DNA from: a virus
Length of the DNA stretch: 47,583 nt
Direction: 5' to 3' (one strand)
IMG/VR virus record: IMGVR_UViG_3300042982_000075
Coordinates: 1-47,583 of that record
Each line of letters opens with the position of its first letter. Positions within the stretch are counted from its first letter, which is position 1. A model generated the notes under the pieces. The model did no database searches, had not been told where the DNA came from, and saw only the letters and a program-made list of their open reading frames with translations. A program made the position numbers and the translations under genes. Positions 37,589-46,481 of the stretch are shown here, in pieces.

Positions 37589-38124
37589 CCGCCACCCAGA
37601 TCCCTGCCCCGGCGGCGCAGGCCACTGCGCCCGCCGCCGGGGCGGGCACCACCCCGCCCGACCTCGAGGTCGTCGTCCGCAACCACCGGCCCGCCCCGCA
37701 GGGCAGCAAGCGGCACGTCGGCCACGGCCGGCTCATCGAGCAGTCCAAGCGCGTCACCCCATGGCGCACGGCGGTCGTAGAGGCCACCCGGGCCGCCATG
37801 ACCGCCCAGCACGTCATCACCCACGGCGGGTCCCCGGCCGGGCCGGTCGGTCTGATGGACGGTCCGCTGTCGGTCGAGGTCGTCTTCACCGTCCGTAAGC
37901 CCGCCTCAGCACCCAAGACCCGCATCACCTGGCCCACCACCCGGGACAGCGGCGACATCGACAAGCTCCTCCGCTCCACCCTCGACGCCCTCACCACGGC
38001 CGGGGCCATCGCGGATGACTCCCGGATCGTCGAGGTCACCGCCCGCAAGGTCCACCCCGGTGAAGGCCTCGACGCCCTGGACGCCCCGGGCGCCGTGATC
38101 CGTATCTGGAGGCTGGCCCGATGA
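37585..38124 (+). CDS. rusA: RusA-type Holliday junction resolvase
   Basis: A 179-aa resolvase. The conserved core SVEVVFTVRKP, then GDIDKLLRSTLDALTTAGAI and ADDSRIVEVTARK, carries the catalytic aspartates of RusA. A 30-residue Ala/Pro-rich N-terminal extension precedes it. It would resolve recombination or replication branches before packaging, working downstream of the Exo/ERF pair. GTG 37585 overlaps the coiled-coil gene. Confidence 0.92.
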   Translation: MTATQIPAPAAQATAPAAGAGTTPPDLEVVVRNHRPAPQGSKRHVGHGRLIEQSKRVTPWRTAVVEATRAAMTAQHVITHGGSPAGPVGLMDGPLSVEVVFTVRKPASAPKTRITWPTTRDSGDIDKLLRSTLDALTTAGAIADDSRIVEVTARKVHPGEGLDALDAPGAVIRIWRLAR

Positions 38125-38450
38125 CCGGCAACCGGCCGGCGTGCGAGGACCCGTCCGTCGACAGGTCGTGGTGGTGGGCCGACCGCTCCACCGCCGCCGG
38201 CGCGGCCGACGCCGACTTCGCCACCTACATCTGCCGTAACTCCTGCCCGGTCCGCGAGGCGTGCCTGGCAGAGGCCATGACCACCGAAGGCAACGCGACC
38301 GACAAGCACCGCTTCGGGATCTACGGCGGCCTGACCGCGATTGAGCGGGCCCGCCTGTACAAGGGCGGCCGCGTCCAGACCACCCGCCCCAAGCCCGAGC
38401 CCGAGGCGCAGCAGCAGCTAGTCGTCCTCGACCTGGAGGCCGCGGCATGA
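38121..38450 (+). CDS. WhiB-family iron-sulfur regulator
   Basis: A 109-aa WhiB-like protein. The four cluster cysteines are C8, C38, C42 and C48 (CRNSCPVREACLAEAM), and the turn motif GIYGG at 66-70 precedes the basic tail. The usual spacing is CX2CX5C; here it is CX3CX5C, one residue longer. WhiB proteins are 4Fe-4S regulators that bind sigma-factor region 4, and phage versions can interfere with host WhiB. ATG 38121 overlaps rusA by 4 bases. Confidence 0.9.
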   Translation: MTGNRPACEDPSVDRSWWWADRSTAAGAADADFATYICRNSCPVREACLAEAMTTEGNATDKHRFGIYGGLTAIERARLYKGGRVQTTRPKPEPEAQQQLVVLDLEAAA

Positions 38451-38932
38451 CGATGCTCACGGCCCGCGAGCGCGGAGACATGGCCGAGCGTATGGTTCCT
38501 GTCGCCTGCCAGCTCGCCTGCATCGCCCACGGCGACGGCGGCCAGCCGGACATCGCGCACGTCCTCACCCAGCTCGACGACAACGAGCGCGAGGCCCTGA
38601 TCGTGGTCCTCGCCGCCATGGTCGACCCCAGCCTGAAGCTGGCTGACCTCCTCGGCTACGTCACCTGGGACGAGGAAGGCCGACCGGCACCGCGCCAGAT
38701 CATCACCGGAACCGTCCGGCAGAACGCCCGCCAGCAGTGGACCCCGATCCACAAGCCCGCAGTGAAGGGCGGCCCGCGCGAGCGCGTCCTGGTCGAGGAC
38801 TCCGAGGAACTCCACGCACAGGGCCTGGACCCGCAGGAGATCGCCGCGCGGCTCGGCACCACATGGTCCCGCATTCAGACCGCGTACTCCCGGTGCCAGG
38901 TTCCGACCCCGAAGGCGAGGGCCGCCGCATGA
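38447..38932 (+). CDS. Early protein with C-terminal HTH-like segment
   Basis: A 161-aa protein. The first ~80 residues are helical (MAERMVPVACQLACIAHGD, DDNEREALIVVLAAMVDPSL). The end LDPQEIAARLGTTWSRIQTA is a probable helix-turn-helix similar to those of recombinase or sigma-like proteins. ATG 38447 overlaps the whiB stop by 4 bases, so the two are translationally coupled and may act together. No family name is assigned. Confidence 0.66.
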   Translation: MTMLTARERGDMAERMVPVACQLACIAHGDGGQPDIAHVLTQLDDNEREALIVVLAAMVDPSLKLADLLGYVTWDEEGRPAPRQIITGTVRQNARQQWTPIHKPAVKGGPRERVLVEDSEELHAQGLDPQEIAARLGTTWSRIQTAYSRCQVPTPKARAAA

Positions 38933-39597
38933 CGATCGCCGCCCTCCGCGCCATCCAGGACGGGGAATTCCCCGAGGTCCGCCGGCTCCCCGCACCCCGC
39001 CTCAACCGCACCCCCAGGAAGGAGGAGCAGGTGGACACCCAGACCGCTGTCGCCGTCTCCATGTACAAGCACGGCGAGACCGTCGCCGCCATCACCCAGG
39101 CCACCGGCCTGACCCAGGACCAGATCGGCGCCGCCGTCACCGCCACCGGCGTCCCGTTCGTCGCCGACCGGTACACCATTCGCGCCACCGGCCCGGAACT
39201 GCCGCCGCCGGCCAAGACCGCCGCGCCGTCCACCGCCGAGGCGCTCATCGCCTGGGGCATGGGCCACGGCAGCCCGCGCGTGCAGCGCCTGGCCGACCAG
39301 GCCCGCGCCGCGCTCGCCGACCTCCAACAGGCCCAGCGCAAGGAAGCCGCGGTCACCGGGGCCGAGGAACTCGTCCGCCGCGCCGAGCAGCAGCTGGCCG
39401 ACGCCAAGGCCGCGCTGCGCACCGCGAAGGGCAGCAGCGCCCCGGCCACCGCGGGCACCACCAGCGACCGGCCCACGACCGAGGAATGCGCCGCGATCCG
39501 CGCCTGGGCCCGGGAGAACGGCGTCGAGGTCGGCGCGGTCGGCACCCCCGCCCGCCGCGTCATCGACGCCTACCGCGCCGCGCGGGCCGCCGCGTGA
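38929..39597 (+). CDS. Protein with Lsr2-like C-terminal domain
   Basis: A 222-aa protein. An HTH-like repeat lies at ~40-75 (VSMYKHGETVAAITQATG), an Ala/Lys coiled coil follows (EELVRRAEQQLADAKAALRT), and the last ~40 residues (AAIRAWARENGVEVGAVGTP, ARRVIDAYRAARA) match the DNA-binding C-terminus of Lsr2. Lsr2 normally inserts an RGR loop into AT-rich minor grooves; here that position reads VGT, so affinity or specificity may differ. A phage counterpart could compete with or counteract host Lsr2 silencing (inference). Confidence 0.74.
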   Translation: MTIAALRAIQDGEFPEVRRLPAPRLNRTPRKEEQVDTQTAVAVSMYKHGETVAAITQATGLTQDQIGAAVTATGVPFVADRYTIRATGPELPPPAKTAAPSTAEALIAWGMGHGSPRVQRLADQARAALADLQQAQRKEAAVTGAEELVRRAEQQLADAKAALRTAKGSSAPATAGTTSDRPTTEECAAIRAWARENGVEVGAVGTPARRVIDAYRAARAAA

Positions 39598-40355: not shown

Positions 40356-41183
40356 GTGAGCACCGAGCAGGACCAGCGCACCGGAAGCGTCGCCCACGCC
40401 TTCGGCCAGGCGCTCGCCTTCAAGTGGGCACCTGCCCTGCCCACGGCCATCAAGCGCACCGGCCTGCCCATCCTGCTCTACGCCCTGCGGCAACTCGCCA
40501 ACGCTGCAGGGGAGCTGCGGTTCGCCGGCGACGGCAAACCAATCCGCGTCCGGCAGATAGCCGCCGCCGCGTGCTGCGCCGAGAAAGACGCACGCCGCTT
40601 CCTGGACGCCGCAATCGTCGCCGGAGTCGTCCAGGTCGTCGGGGAGCGCAAGCGCGGATCGATCACCGTGTACCGGCTGATCGTCACGCCGTGGCCCGAC
40701 TGGGAGGCAGCCGCCTCCTACCTGAGAGCGAACCCGCGGAAGTCAGGCACTGCCCGCACGGTATGGCAGCAGGACGACACCGCCGAAAGTTCGGGTCACC
40801 GCGACCCAAACTCCCCGGAGCCAACCTCGGGTCACCGCGACCCAAACTTTGAGGCCCCCGACGAAACCGAAGTTCGGGTCACCGCGACCCATTGGAGTTC
40901 GGGTCACCGCGACCCATTGAGTTCGGGTCACCGCGACCCAAACAACCCATGTATCTCCCATGAGTACTCCCATGAGGTGGCTGAGGTAGTCACACAACCT
41001 CAGGTCCCCGGCGGCCACGCCCCGGACGAGACCCCCCACGAGGACACCGGCGCCGCTCCGCGCGCCGAACCCGCCACCCAGCTACCCGCCGACTTCATCC
41101 GCTGCACCGTCTGCCACCGCCCGATGCTGCCCCGCCCCGGCCGCACCGCCCACCGCGACTGCACCACCGCCCGCACCGCCTGA
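40356..41183 (+). CDS. Replication initiator-like protein containing the iteron array
   Basis: A 275-aa protein. The N-terminal ~115 residues form a winged-helix-like domain (PIRVRQIAAAACCAEKDARR, AAIVAGVVQVVGERKRGSIT). The middle ~60 residues are low-complexity and encoded by five DNA iterons (SGHRDP motifs; the third copy is read in another frame as VRVTATH). The C-terminus has CTVCHRPMLPRPGRTAHRDC, a zinc-finger-like end. Initiator genes that contain their own origin are known from lambda O. GTG 40356 follows AAAGAAGAGCCC. I saw no helicase loader or helicase nearby. Confidence 0.72.
   Translation: MSTEQDQRTGSVAHAFGQALAFKWAPALPTAIKRTGLPILLYALRQLANAAGELRFAGDGKPIRVRQIAAAACCAEKDARRFLDAAIVAGVVQVVGERKRGSITVYRLIVTPWPDWEAAASYLRANPRKSGTARTVWQQDDTAESSGHRDPNSPEPTSGHRDPNFEAPDETEVRVTATHWSSGHRDPLSSGHRDPNNPCISHEYSHEVAEVVTQPQVPGGHAPDETPHEDTGAAPRAEPATQLPADFIRCTVCHRPMLPRPGRTAHRDCTTARTA
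40793..40939 (+). repeat. Iteron array, probable origin of replication
   Basis: Five perfect copies of GGGTCACCGCGACCC start at 40793, 40829, 40876, 40901 and 40925, each preceded by TCG(GG) context and four followed by A-rich bases (CCCAAAC or CCCATTG). Each copy is itself an inverted repeat, GGGTC-ACCGC-GACCC. Distances are 36, 47, 25 and 24 bases. The 47-base step changes reading frame, yet the DNA is unchanged, so selection acts on DNA. Just downstream are three CCCATG copies at 11-12 base steps and a relatively AT-rich stretch (40940-40990). Confidence 0.8.
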
Positions 41184-42209: not shown

Positions 42210-42541
42210 GCGGCGGTGGGCAGCTCGCCGTCACCGCCCTCGTCGGCGCCGGCCTGATCGCGGCCGGGTGGCTGGCGGATCGGTGGCACACGCGGCGGAA
42301 GGTACGCCGAGCCCGGGAGCGCAGGGACGGTCAGATCGCAGCCCTGGACGCCCGTCAGAAGCCGAACACCGCCACGAACGGTCCGGGCGACCTCCACCCC
42401 TGGTTCGGCCGCCACACGGCCCCGCCACGGCCCGCCTGCGCCTGCTGGGCCTGCGCGCTCACACCCGCCGAACTCGGCACCAACGACTGCGAAGCCCACC
42501 TCGAAGAGATCTACGCCCGCGACGCCTACGAAAGGCCCTGA
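42206..42541 (+). CDS. Membrane protein with cytoplasmic Cys motif (111 aa)
   Basis: GTG 42206 is in a GTGA overlap. One N-terminal membrane helix (LAVTALVGAGLIAAGWLAD) is followed by a strongly basic stretch (RRKVRRARERR) and a C-terminal part with PACACWACALTPAELGTNDC, which may bind zinc. The basic stretch after the helix indicates a cytoplasmic C-terminus. Function unknown. Confidence 0.66.
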   Translation: MSGGGQLAVTALVGAGLIAAGWLADRWHTRRKVRRARERRDGQIAALDARQKPNTATNGPGDLHPWFGRHTAPPRPACACWACALTPAELGTNDCEAHLEEIYARDAYERP

Positions 42542-42543
42542 CC

Positions 42544-42753
42544 ATGACCGCCACCGTCTCACCCGTCCGGGTCGAACGCTCCCGGCCCAGCGTCCGCGAC
42601 ACCGCCCGCCTCGCCGCCTTCAAGCGCAAGTTTCCGTGGGCCTGGTGGTGCACCAGCTGCCCCGGCGCGTACGGCGCCGACCGAACCGAGGAACTCGCCC
42701 AGGCGCAGGCCAGCGCCCACGCCGCTGCCGCACACCTCACCGAAGGGAACTGA
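42544..42753 (+). CDS. Small zinc-like protein (69 aa)
   Basis: ATG 42544 follows AAAGGCCCTGACC, a ribosome site repeated before 42924. It contains WAWWCTSCPGAYGADRTEEL, then an Ala/His-rich helix ending AAAHLTEGN. CXXC plus a downstream His suggests one metal site. Function unknown. Confidence 0.62.
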   Translation: MTATVSPVRVERSRPSVRDTARLAAFKRKFPWAWWCTSCPGAYGADRTEELAQAQASAHAAAAHLTEGN

Positions 42754-42881: not shown

Positions 42882-42923
42882 CGCCCTCCCCGCCCGCACA
42901 CCCGACCACGAAAGGCCCTGACC

Positions 42924-43115
42924 ATGACCGCCATCCCCGCCGTCTTCCTGCGCTGTGACGGATGCCTGGTCTTCCTGGACACCGACACGATCCCGGACGC
43001 TCCGACGATCAAGGACGCCCGCTTGGAGGCCCGGCGGAAGGACTGGCGGATCACGAGCCGGAAGGACCTCTGCCCCGACTGCGCCGCGGAGACCGCCGAA
43101 CCGCACGACGCCTGA
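42924..43115 (+). CDS. Small zinc-ribbon protein (63 aa)
   Basis: ATG 42924 follows AAAGGCCCTGACC. FLRCDGCLVFLDTDTIPD and LCPDCAAETAEPHDA give CXXC-X~33-CXXC, with a helix between (IKDARLEARRKDWRI). Such proteins are common in Streptomyces phages. A strong hairpin and a tRNA follow. Confidence 0.68.
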   Translation: MTAIPAVFLRCDGCLVFLDTDTIPDAPTIKDARLEARRKDWRITSRKDLCPDCAAETAEPHDA

Positions 43116-43121
43116 CGTCCC

Positions 43122-43148
43122 GTGGTGGCCCGCACGCCGGGCCACCAC
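43122..43148 (+). terminator. 11-bp hairpin immediately before tRNA
   Basis: GTGGTGGCCCG (43122-43132) and its complement (43138-43148) enclose a 5-base loop, 4 bases before the tRNA. It may terminate the upstream message or, if transcription continues, act as a processing stem that helps release the tRNA 5' end. Confidence 0.65.
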
Positions 43149-43152
43149 CCCA

Positions 43153-43226
43153 GCCCGAGTAGCCCAACGGCAGAGGCCACCGCCTTAAAAGCGGACCAAG
43201 TGCGGGTTCGAATCCCGCCCCGGGCA
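43153..43226 (+). tRNA. tRNA with UAA anticodon on a short-variable-arm scaffold
   Basis: A 74-nt cloverleaf. Acceptor stem 43153-43159 pairs with 43219-43225 except one A-C mismatch, and the discriminator is A43226. The D arm has 3 pairs, the anticodon stem 4 (80-83 with 91-94), and the T arm GCGGG-TTCGAAT-CCCGC is perfect. The loop CTTAAAA gives anticodon UAA (43186-43188), which reads UUA leucine codons. Leucine tRNAs normally have a long variable arm; this one has about 6 bases, so its amino acid is uncertain. CCA is not encoded. Confidence 0.8.
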
Positions 43227-43260
43227 CGCCCCCCACCCCGACCGCACCGGAAGGACCGCC

Positions 43261-43497
43261 GTGGCCACCTACACCAGCCGTCAGATCGTCTCCCGCCGCA
43301 AGGAATGGATCGTGCCCACCATCAACGAGTACGGAGCTCCGCTCGGCGAGTTCCTGGCCGCGCTCGCCGCCGCCTCGGCGTCGTACCGGCAGGACCACGG
43401 CATCCCCGAGACCGTCGCGCTCGCCGACGACACCCTGCGCGTCCGGCCGGACGACGACGACATCGTCATCAGCTACGTCCTCGAGGTGGCCGAGTGA
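43261..43497 (+). CDS. Early protein of unknown function (78 aa)
   Basis: GTG 43261 follows CCGGAAGGACCGCC. The sequence (ATYTSRQIVSRRKEWIVPTI, PLGEFLAALAAASASYRQDH, DDDDIVISYVLEVAE) resembles small alpha/beta proteins widespread in Streptomyces phages. It overlaps the next gene by 4 bases. Function unknown. Confidence 0.66.
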   Translation: MATYTSRQIVSRRKEWIVPTINEYGAPLGEFLAALAAASASYRQDHGIPETVALADDTLRVRPDDDDIVISYVLEVAE

Positions 43498-44042
43498 CCG
43501 CCGCCGTGCCGACGCCGCCCGCCGCCCAGGTCCGCGCGCTCCTCGACCGCGCCGCCAACGGCCACCTCAACCCCGACGAACAGCGCCTGGCCGGCCAGCT
43601 CCTCCGCCAGGCCCGCGCGGCCAGCTACCGCACCGCCGCGCTGGACGAGGTGCGGGACGCCCTTACCGCCGCCGGGCACGGCCGCGCCGAGGTCACTGAC
43701 TGGCCCGACGTCATGCCCGCCCTCACCGACCTCATCGCCGAGCGGGACCGCTACCGGGCCGCCTGGCAGTCCGCCCGCCGCCGGGCAGTGCAACGCCACA
43801 ACCTCGCCCGCCACAACAACGGCCAGACCAGCGCGGCTGTTCACCGAGCACTGGCTGCCGAGACCGAGCGGGACCAGCTCCGCAAGCAGCTCGCCGCCCG
43901 CGTCGAACCCGGCACCGTCGACTGCCCCCGCTGCCCTGCCCCCGCCGGCCGCCGCTGCAAGTCCCCGTCCGGGCAGATCGTGAACTGGCACTCGGAGCGG
44001 ATCATCCGCGCCCAGCAGCAGGCCGCGGGGGTGGGGCAGTGA
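43494..44042 (+). CDS. Protein with C-terminal mobile-element-type zinc finger (182 aa)
   Basis: GTG 43494 is in a GTGA overlap. Helical segments (AQVRALLDRAANGHLNPDEQ, LTDLIAERDRYRAAWQSARR) lead to a zinc finger VDCPRCPAPAGRRCKSPSG with a downstream His (NWHSERI). This CPXC-X6-CXXXXG-H type finger is common in Streptomyces mobile-element proteins and probably binds nucleic acid. The rest is unassigned. Confidence 0.7.
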   Translation: MTAAVPTPPAAQVRALLDRAANGHLNPDEQRLAGQLLRQARAASYRTAALDEVRDALTAAGHGRAEVTDWPDVMPALTDLIAERDRYRAAWQSARRRAVQRHNLARHNNGQTSAAVHRALAAETERDQLRKQLAARVEPGTVDCPRCPAPAGRRCKSPSGQIVNWHSERIIRAQQQAAGVGQ

Positions 44043-45539: not shown

Positions 45540-46481
45540 GTGAAGCTCATCCAGCGCCGCGCCGCCGGAAAGCGGTGGCAGCGGCCACCCGCCATCATCT
45601 GGGGCGCAGCAGCGCTCGCCGCCCTATCCCTCGCCTGGTCCGGCTACGCCATCACCCAGCTGATGCACTCCGGCCCGTTCGGCCTGTCCGTCGCCGTCGC
45701 CGGAGACATCGGCTGGATCACTGTCCTCTACGCCGAGTACCGCGGCATCACCATCGCCGGGAAGCACTGGACCGCCCCCGCAGCCGGCTGGCTCATTGCC
45801 GTTGCCGTCGCCGGGCTCCTGGTCCTCCACGGCCTGGACGCCGGCAGCATCCCCCAGGCGATCGCCGGGCCCTTCGTCGTCCTGGTCGGCAAGACCGTGT
45901 GGACGTTCGGCCTCGCCGCGATGGCCGACCCGACCGCCCTGACGCCGGAGCAGGAAGCCGAGATCAACTCGGTGATCCGTCACTCCGAGTACGTCGCCCG
46001 CATGCTCGGTGCTGAGTCCGACGCGGAGATCGTCCGGATCCAGGCGCAGGCCCGCACCGTTCTCGCGAGGGACGAGGCCGACTTCCAGATCACCCTGGAG
46101 CGGATCGGCATGCGCGCCGAGCTCGCCCGCCGGGCACCGCTCGCGTTGAGCGTTGAGCCCACCGGCTCAGCCACAGTTGAGCTCCCGGCTCGCCCGGTTG
46201 AGCCCACCAGCTCAACCGACCCGGTGAGCCTGACATCCGCGCACGTCACCACGCCCGAGCCCGAGGCTCGCCCCGCTGCGCCCGAGCGCATCACGTTCGG
46301 GTTCACGGCCCACCAGAGTGCGCAGTCGGCTCAGCGGGCTCAGGGCGTGGCTCAGGTGGCTGAGCTCCTGGCCGCTGATCCCGGGCTCACCTCCGGGCAG
46401 GTCGCCGAGACCCTCAAGGTCAGCCCGGCCACTGCGAAGCGGTACCTCCGCGAGGCCCGGCAGGGAGGCACCAAGCGATGA
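45540..46481 (+). CDS. SpdB-like four-helix membrane protein with C-terminal HTH
   Basis: A 313-aa protein. Four membrane segments are visible: AIIWGAAALAALSLAWSGYA, LSVAVAGDIGWITVLYAEY, WLIAVAVAGLLVLHGLDAG and AIAGPFVVLVGKTVWTFGL. The second resembles SpdB/SpdB2 spread proteins of Streptomyces plasmids and integrative elements. A helical cytoplasmic part (AEIVRIQAQARTVLARDEAD) follows, and the end is a helix-turn-helix (LTSGQVAETLKVSPATAKRY). Spread proteins move plasmid DNA along the mycelium with TraB; no TraB is present here. GTG 45540 has GGAAC upstream. Confidence 0.7.
   Translation: MKLIQRRAAGKRWQRPPAIIWGAAALAALSLAWSGYAITQLMHSGPFGLSVAVAGDIGWITVLYAEYRGITIAGKHWTAPAAGWLIAVAVAGLLVLHGLDAGSIPQAIAGPFVVLVGKTVWTFGLAAMADPTALTPEQEAEINSVIRHSEYVARMLGAESDAEIVRIQAQARTVLARDEADFQITLERIGMRAELARRAPLALSVEPTGSATVELPARPVEPTSSTDPVSLTSAHVTTPEPEARPAAPERITFGFTAHQSAQSAQRAQGVAQVAELLAADPGLTSGQVAETLKVSPATAKRYLREARQGGTKR

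Follow-up and report, generated by a model that had tools for sequence, protein, structure and literature searches.

We found that a temperate Streptomyces phage very probably carries a self-contained theta-type replication start module inside a single gene, laid out like ori and the O gene of phage lambda. The stretch we analyzed (the window) is an entire viral record of 47,583 bases. It contains terminase, major head protein and tail genes and a serine-type integrase (phrog_95, E 5e-90, the serine type coming from a DNA-invertase-like match), and on these grounds we consider the phage temperate; its relatives are Streptomyces phages and prophages. The gene at 40356..41183 (+ strand, GTG start) encodes an initiator-like protein of 275 aa, as seen from the ORF, its homologs and an AlphaFold2 model, and an array of five iterons lies in the middle of its coding sequence. 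We infer that the array is a replication origin by analogy, from a layout like those of lambda O and pSK41, a weak O-like family match, an AT-rich tract and the gene neighborhood.

The array is built on GGGTCACCGCGACCC, which occurs in five exact copies on the + strand (starts at 40793, 40829, 40876, 40901 and 40925), all inside ORF 40356-41183. The spacings are 36, 47, 25 and 24 bp. No further exact copy was found elsewhere in the 47,583-base record, and no 15-mer in the window is present more than five times. With up to 3 mismatches allowed, there were 25 matches where 11.1 were expected, and the largest number in 100 shuffles was 18. The preliminary description had called these copies perfect 15-bp palindromes. 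The copies are indeed five and identical, but the palindrome is imperfect, as the reverse complement, GGGTCGCGGTGACCC, matches at 12 of 15 positions, with one mismatched pair and the center base accounting for the rest. Comparison of relatives gives a natural unit of 21 bp with the form TTCGGG-NN-N5-NN-CCCGAA, which in the window has 8-bp arms around an asymmetric 5-bp spacer, TTCGGGTC-ACCGC-GACCCAAA. The 21-bp units are all on the + strand, at 40790..40810 (iteron 1, core 40793-40807), 40826..40846 (iteron 2, core 40829-40843), 40873..40893 (iteron 3, core 40876-40890), 40898..40918 (iteron 4, core 40901-40915) and 40922..40942 (iteron 5, core 40925-40939).

For the comparisons we used contig scans of genomes and viruses with alignments as queries, which gave 17, 30 and 29 loci, from which we kept 49 distinct genes; another 19 loci were held out. 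Alignments were required, as a viral scan with a single protein as the query returned no relative. Plasmid records yielded no relative either. A search of viral contigs for the iteron pattern, independent of the protein, recovered the same family along with chance matches (L105, L117, L118, L120 and L121 were discarded as such). One distant homolog, L184, does not have the array and was excluded from the test of the recognition code described below.

The array sits at the same place in the homologous genes and its spacing is rigid: 25 or 36 bp, then 46, 25 and 24 bp. In 48 of the 49 genes the array closes with spacings of 25 and 24 bp; the remaining locus is cut differently. The third-from-last spacing is 46 bp in 40 of the 49, 47 bp in the window and 36 bp in the Chymera-like phages and some other relatives. 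The permitted spacings (24/25, 35-37 and 46/47) are about one helical turn apart, as would be expected for a phased bound protein. It had been predicted that relatives would retain the iterons, and this is correct for their position, number and spacing but not for their sequence, which covaries with the protein. GGG and CCC on the outside are almost invariant, and the inner bases vary between phages while being nearly uniform within one: the inner 9 nt are 94% identical among the copies of one genome, and corresponding copies from different genomes are 62% identical.

In the window, copies 1, 2, 4 and 5 encode SGHRDP, and copy 3 encodes RVTATH in another frame of the same ORF, which agrees with what was first noticed. 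Because the same hexapeptide comes from four of the five copies, one could suppose that the peptide was selected for the protein and that the copies agree at the DNA level merely because they were duplicated recently. We find this hardly credible. The peptide is unrepeated in the other frames, and relatives use all three frames: the last five iterons occupy all three in 41 of the 49 and two frames in the other 8. Conservation is as high at third codon positions as at the other two, with 1.42, 1.38 and 1.38 bits per codon position over iterons 3 to 5, compared with 1.34, 1.53 and 1.00 bits in the N-terminal domain. The encoded stretch is predicted to be disordered, and the spacing of iterons 3 to 5 hardly ever slips, though the protein would tolerate slippage. 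The use of three frames and the conserved third positions support the view, already put forward in the preliminary description, that selection acts on the iteron DNA.

AlphaFold2, run with 39 family members, gave a model with three parts. The first is a winged helix-turn-helix domain (residues 12-125, 40389..40730, + strand, pLDDT mostly >=90), in which helices 65-71 and 76-89 precede a wing of two strands (92-95 and 105-108). The second is a linker (residues 137-226, 40764..41033, + strand) that is predicted to be disordered (pLDDT below or around 50); its DNA carries the iterons, the CCCA-type repeats and an inverted repeat. The third is a C-terminal Cys-x2-Cys...His...Cys ribbon (residues 247-275, 41094..41180, + strand, pLDDT around 90 over 251-270), modeled as short strands and one helix without a five-helix domain. 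Homologs include OnionKnight gp46, Chymera gp45 and further loci.

Evidence that this protein binds its own iterons comes from residue 75, Ala in the window (codon 40578..40580, + strand), which is placed where the predicted recognition helix (76-89) begins, at its N-terminal end, and covaries with an iteron base. We classed the genomes as G, T or C by the iteron base adjoining the GGG core, and residue 75 agreed with the class in 49 of 49: Asp with G (28 genomes), Ser, Asn or Ala with T (11, some of them T/C) and Arg with C (10). Half-sites are mixed in six of the 49 genomes, which we classed by their majority base, including a 5:5 C/T tie (L049) that was placed with T. The perfect score therefore owes something to this rule, which the 43 unmixed genomes do not need in order to fit the code. 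Residue 75 explains 100% of the entropy of the iteron class across the 49 genes, compared with about 43% for the next-ranked columns and 25% for the largest value among shuffles. On a tree built without column 75 there are 10 changes of iteron class and 10 of residue class. Among phylogenetically independent pairs on well-supported branches, Asp/G agreed in 6 of 6 (p = 0.03); the pairs for Ser/Asn/Ala-T (5 of 5) and Arg-C (2 of 2) are too few for significance. Eighteen of the 19 held-out loci fit the code, although some are closely related to each other and the number 19 overstates their independence; the sole exception, L167, has Ser with GGTCC iterons (C class). No other single position predicted base 8, in the other half-site, as well as helix position 81 did, a result that is exploratory and confounded by descent. 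Taken from sequence comparison, this covariation strongly supports the earlier proposal that the gene encodes a protein that binds the iterons.

Just after iteron 5 there are three repeats of the CCCA(T/A)G type, at intervals of about 12 bp (40943..40976, + strand), which are conserved in the family and lie in the most AT-rich spot near the array, making this tract a candidate DNA-unwinding element. The 40 nt at 40940-40979 are 52.5% AT, compared with 29% for the window, a value reached by only the highest 0.17% of 40-nt windows. Among 45 relatives, 37 have a 62-nt stretch following iteron 5 that ranks within the top 5% of its own locus for AT. An inverted repeat, CTGAGGT-N9-ACCTCAG (40981..41003, + strand), follows and recurs in most relatives, where it is sometimes imperfect or has a different loop. 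It had also been suggested that GC skew would change near 40.9 kb, and here the result was negative, with no inflection at the array.

Two known arrangements resemble this one. In lambda ori/O and its Stx-phage relatives, the initiator gene likewise carries imperfect inverted-repeat iterons (19 bp in lambda O) midway along its length, next to an AT-rich tract (PMC7466680). Of the 39 family members, 25 have a weak match to PHROG 391, 'replication initiation O-like' (best E 5.6e-4). The window protein itself, however, has no match among Pfam, PHROG and NCBIfam families, and no match to Phage_rep_O of Pfam was obtained for the 39 members. Our iterons also differ from those of lambda in being 21 bp and GC-rich with longer, helically phased spacing, the protein ends in a Cys/His ribbon, and no P-like loader was recognized. 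The iterons of lambda and the Stx phages are almost identical, whereas here the iteron sequence differs between close relatives.

The second resemblance is to RepA_N initiators of the pSK41 type, whose origin DNA specifies a dispensable linker that joins the DNA-binding domain to the C-terminal domain (PMC5703833). They share with our family a winged-helix N-terminal domain, an origin-encoded linker and a C-terminal domain in that order (PMC5703833), and their origin boxes are central in the rep gene, much as the window array encodes residues predicted to be disordered. Unlike them, our family has no match to RepA_N (PF06970) in the list of families for the 39 members (cutoff E <= 0.1), and in place of their five-helix DnaD-like C-terminal domain the model predicts a small Cys/His ribbon. 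Judged by sequence, then, the family is a recognized member of neither lambda O nor RepA_N. Fold searches with Foldseek and VIA-align returned common winged-helix folds alone, with a best Z of 7.8 that is within the chance range; 4pql, 4pt7 and 5kbj, whose titles name an initiator or a Rep-DNA complex, were among the better matches (Z 6.7 to 7.8), not above background. The gene has until now been called hypothetical only. The initiator family is new but its arrangement is of a known kind, and what is novel is the residue-base code. Searches of openly accessible papers turned up no comparable origin from a Streptomyces phage.

A winged-helix protein could also bind such sites to repress or silence transcription within its own gene, in which case the array would be an operator or stoperator array and have nothing to do with replication. 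The domain does resemble winged-helix regulators (PefI, MarR), and 22 members have a weak match to phrog_2030, 'transcriptional regulator'. We nevertheless consider this unlikely, as the sites are confined to mid-gene and class-matched half-sites occur upstream of the start in only 6 of 49 genes. There is no scattered stoperator pattern either, all five exact copies being within one array, and the rigid helical spacing with an adjoining AT-rich tract and inverted repeat is more origin-like. One upstream half-site overlaps the ribosome-binding region of the window gene, but such half-sites are not conserved among the relatives, and for this reason we rejected autoregulation as a general feature. 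Two loci, L040 and L080, have an extra iteron-like sequence shortly before the start of the homologous gene, possibly an operator.

The array is in the early region of replication and recombination genes, with genes for a RecE-like exonuclease, an Erf-like annealing protein, a DnaQ-like exonuclease and RusA. Among the ORFs scanned with PHROGs we recognized no phage helicase, primase or loader, and no P-like helicase-loader or helicase gene adjacent to the initiator gene; most neighbors have no known family. Phased iteron-like arrays next to DNA-binding genes are also found in plasmid partition loci, and the protein might accordingly bind a partition or centromere site. This is very improbable in our view, as the phage has an integrase and so integrates, and a ParA-like ATPase was not found in the ORFs scanned. 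On the sequence, both regulation and partition appear to fit less well than an origin.

Other features of the region are recorded here for their own sake. Just upstream of the initiator gene the phage carries a WhiB-like regulator (38121-38450, +) and a protein with an Lsr2-like DNA-binding domain (38737-39597, +). A tRNA gene at 43153-43227 (+) has the anticodon TAA and reads TTA, as the Streptomyces bldA tRNA does. ARAGORN calls it Leu, but it is only 75 nt long with a short variable arm, and it overlaps ORF 43122-44042, whose single TTA codon is the only one in the roughly 12,000 codons that we checked. A near-identical 31-nt repeat (42523-42553 and 42903-42933, 380 bp apart) surrounds a possible ribosome-binding site and ATG, and a 21-nt palindromic repeat, GTTGAGCCCACCGGCTCAGCC, occurs in 2 copies 45 bp apart (46152-46172 and 46197-46217).

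Reading the array as an origin, we propose that the 275-aa winged-helix initiator, probably as a dimer, would bind each 21-bp imperfect palindrome and so occupy the five phased iterons midway in its own gene. The resulting protein-DNA complex may then open the AT-richer CCCA-repeat tract adjoining iteron 5, after which the host helicase and the host replisome would be loaded. We propose loading of the host replisome because no phage helicase, primase or loader was recognized in the ORFs scanned. Residue 75 would read the base adjoining the GGG core (G by Asp, T or C by Ser, Asn or Ala, and C by Arg), and the initiator and its iterons would change together as a result.

Covariation of a DNA-binding domain and its origin is known from Vibrio satellites under attack, where RepA and the iterons of PLE covary and initiator-origin pairs are not interchangeable (PMC8263062). 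In PLE, whole domains are swapped and the origin is intergenic, whereas in our family individual residues of the recognition helix follow individual bases and the iterons are in the gene. Replication of lambda has also been reported to be inhibited by plasmids with ori iterons (PMC3349717). The gene is present in 20 of 393 Streptomyces sampled, or about 5% of the Streptomyces species sampled, and in a class-wide sample (n=395) there were 4 hits, all in genomes that are also in the family-level sample. Two genomes have two copies of the gene each, and the codes differ within both pairs: one lysogen (G076) has R/C and D/G prophages and the other (G144) has S/T and D/G prophages. Differing types would be expected if origins of the same type interfered with each other, but two cases are no proof.

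We suggest, tentatively and with more doubt than confidence, that the origins of Streptomyces prophages fall into types that exclude one another and are determined mainly by a single residue of the recognition helix, and that switching type is adaptive. If that is true, each switch (about 10 on the tree, with all of the iteron copies converted together) would free a phage from a resident prophage with the same origin, the relief being from titration or interference by that prophage. The locus probably supplies a group of temperate Streptomyces phages with their origin and initiator, and if the origin is confirmed, it would be a possible source of compatible Streptomyces minireplicons. In some 70 related viruses one initiator residue varies together with one iteron base, a natural recognition code that is open to bench tests, and the matched series of initiators and iterons is well suited to the question of how a DNA-binding protein and ten half-sites may shift specificity jointly while function is kept.
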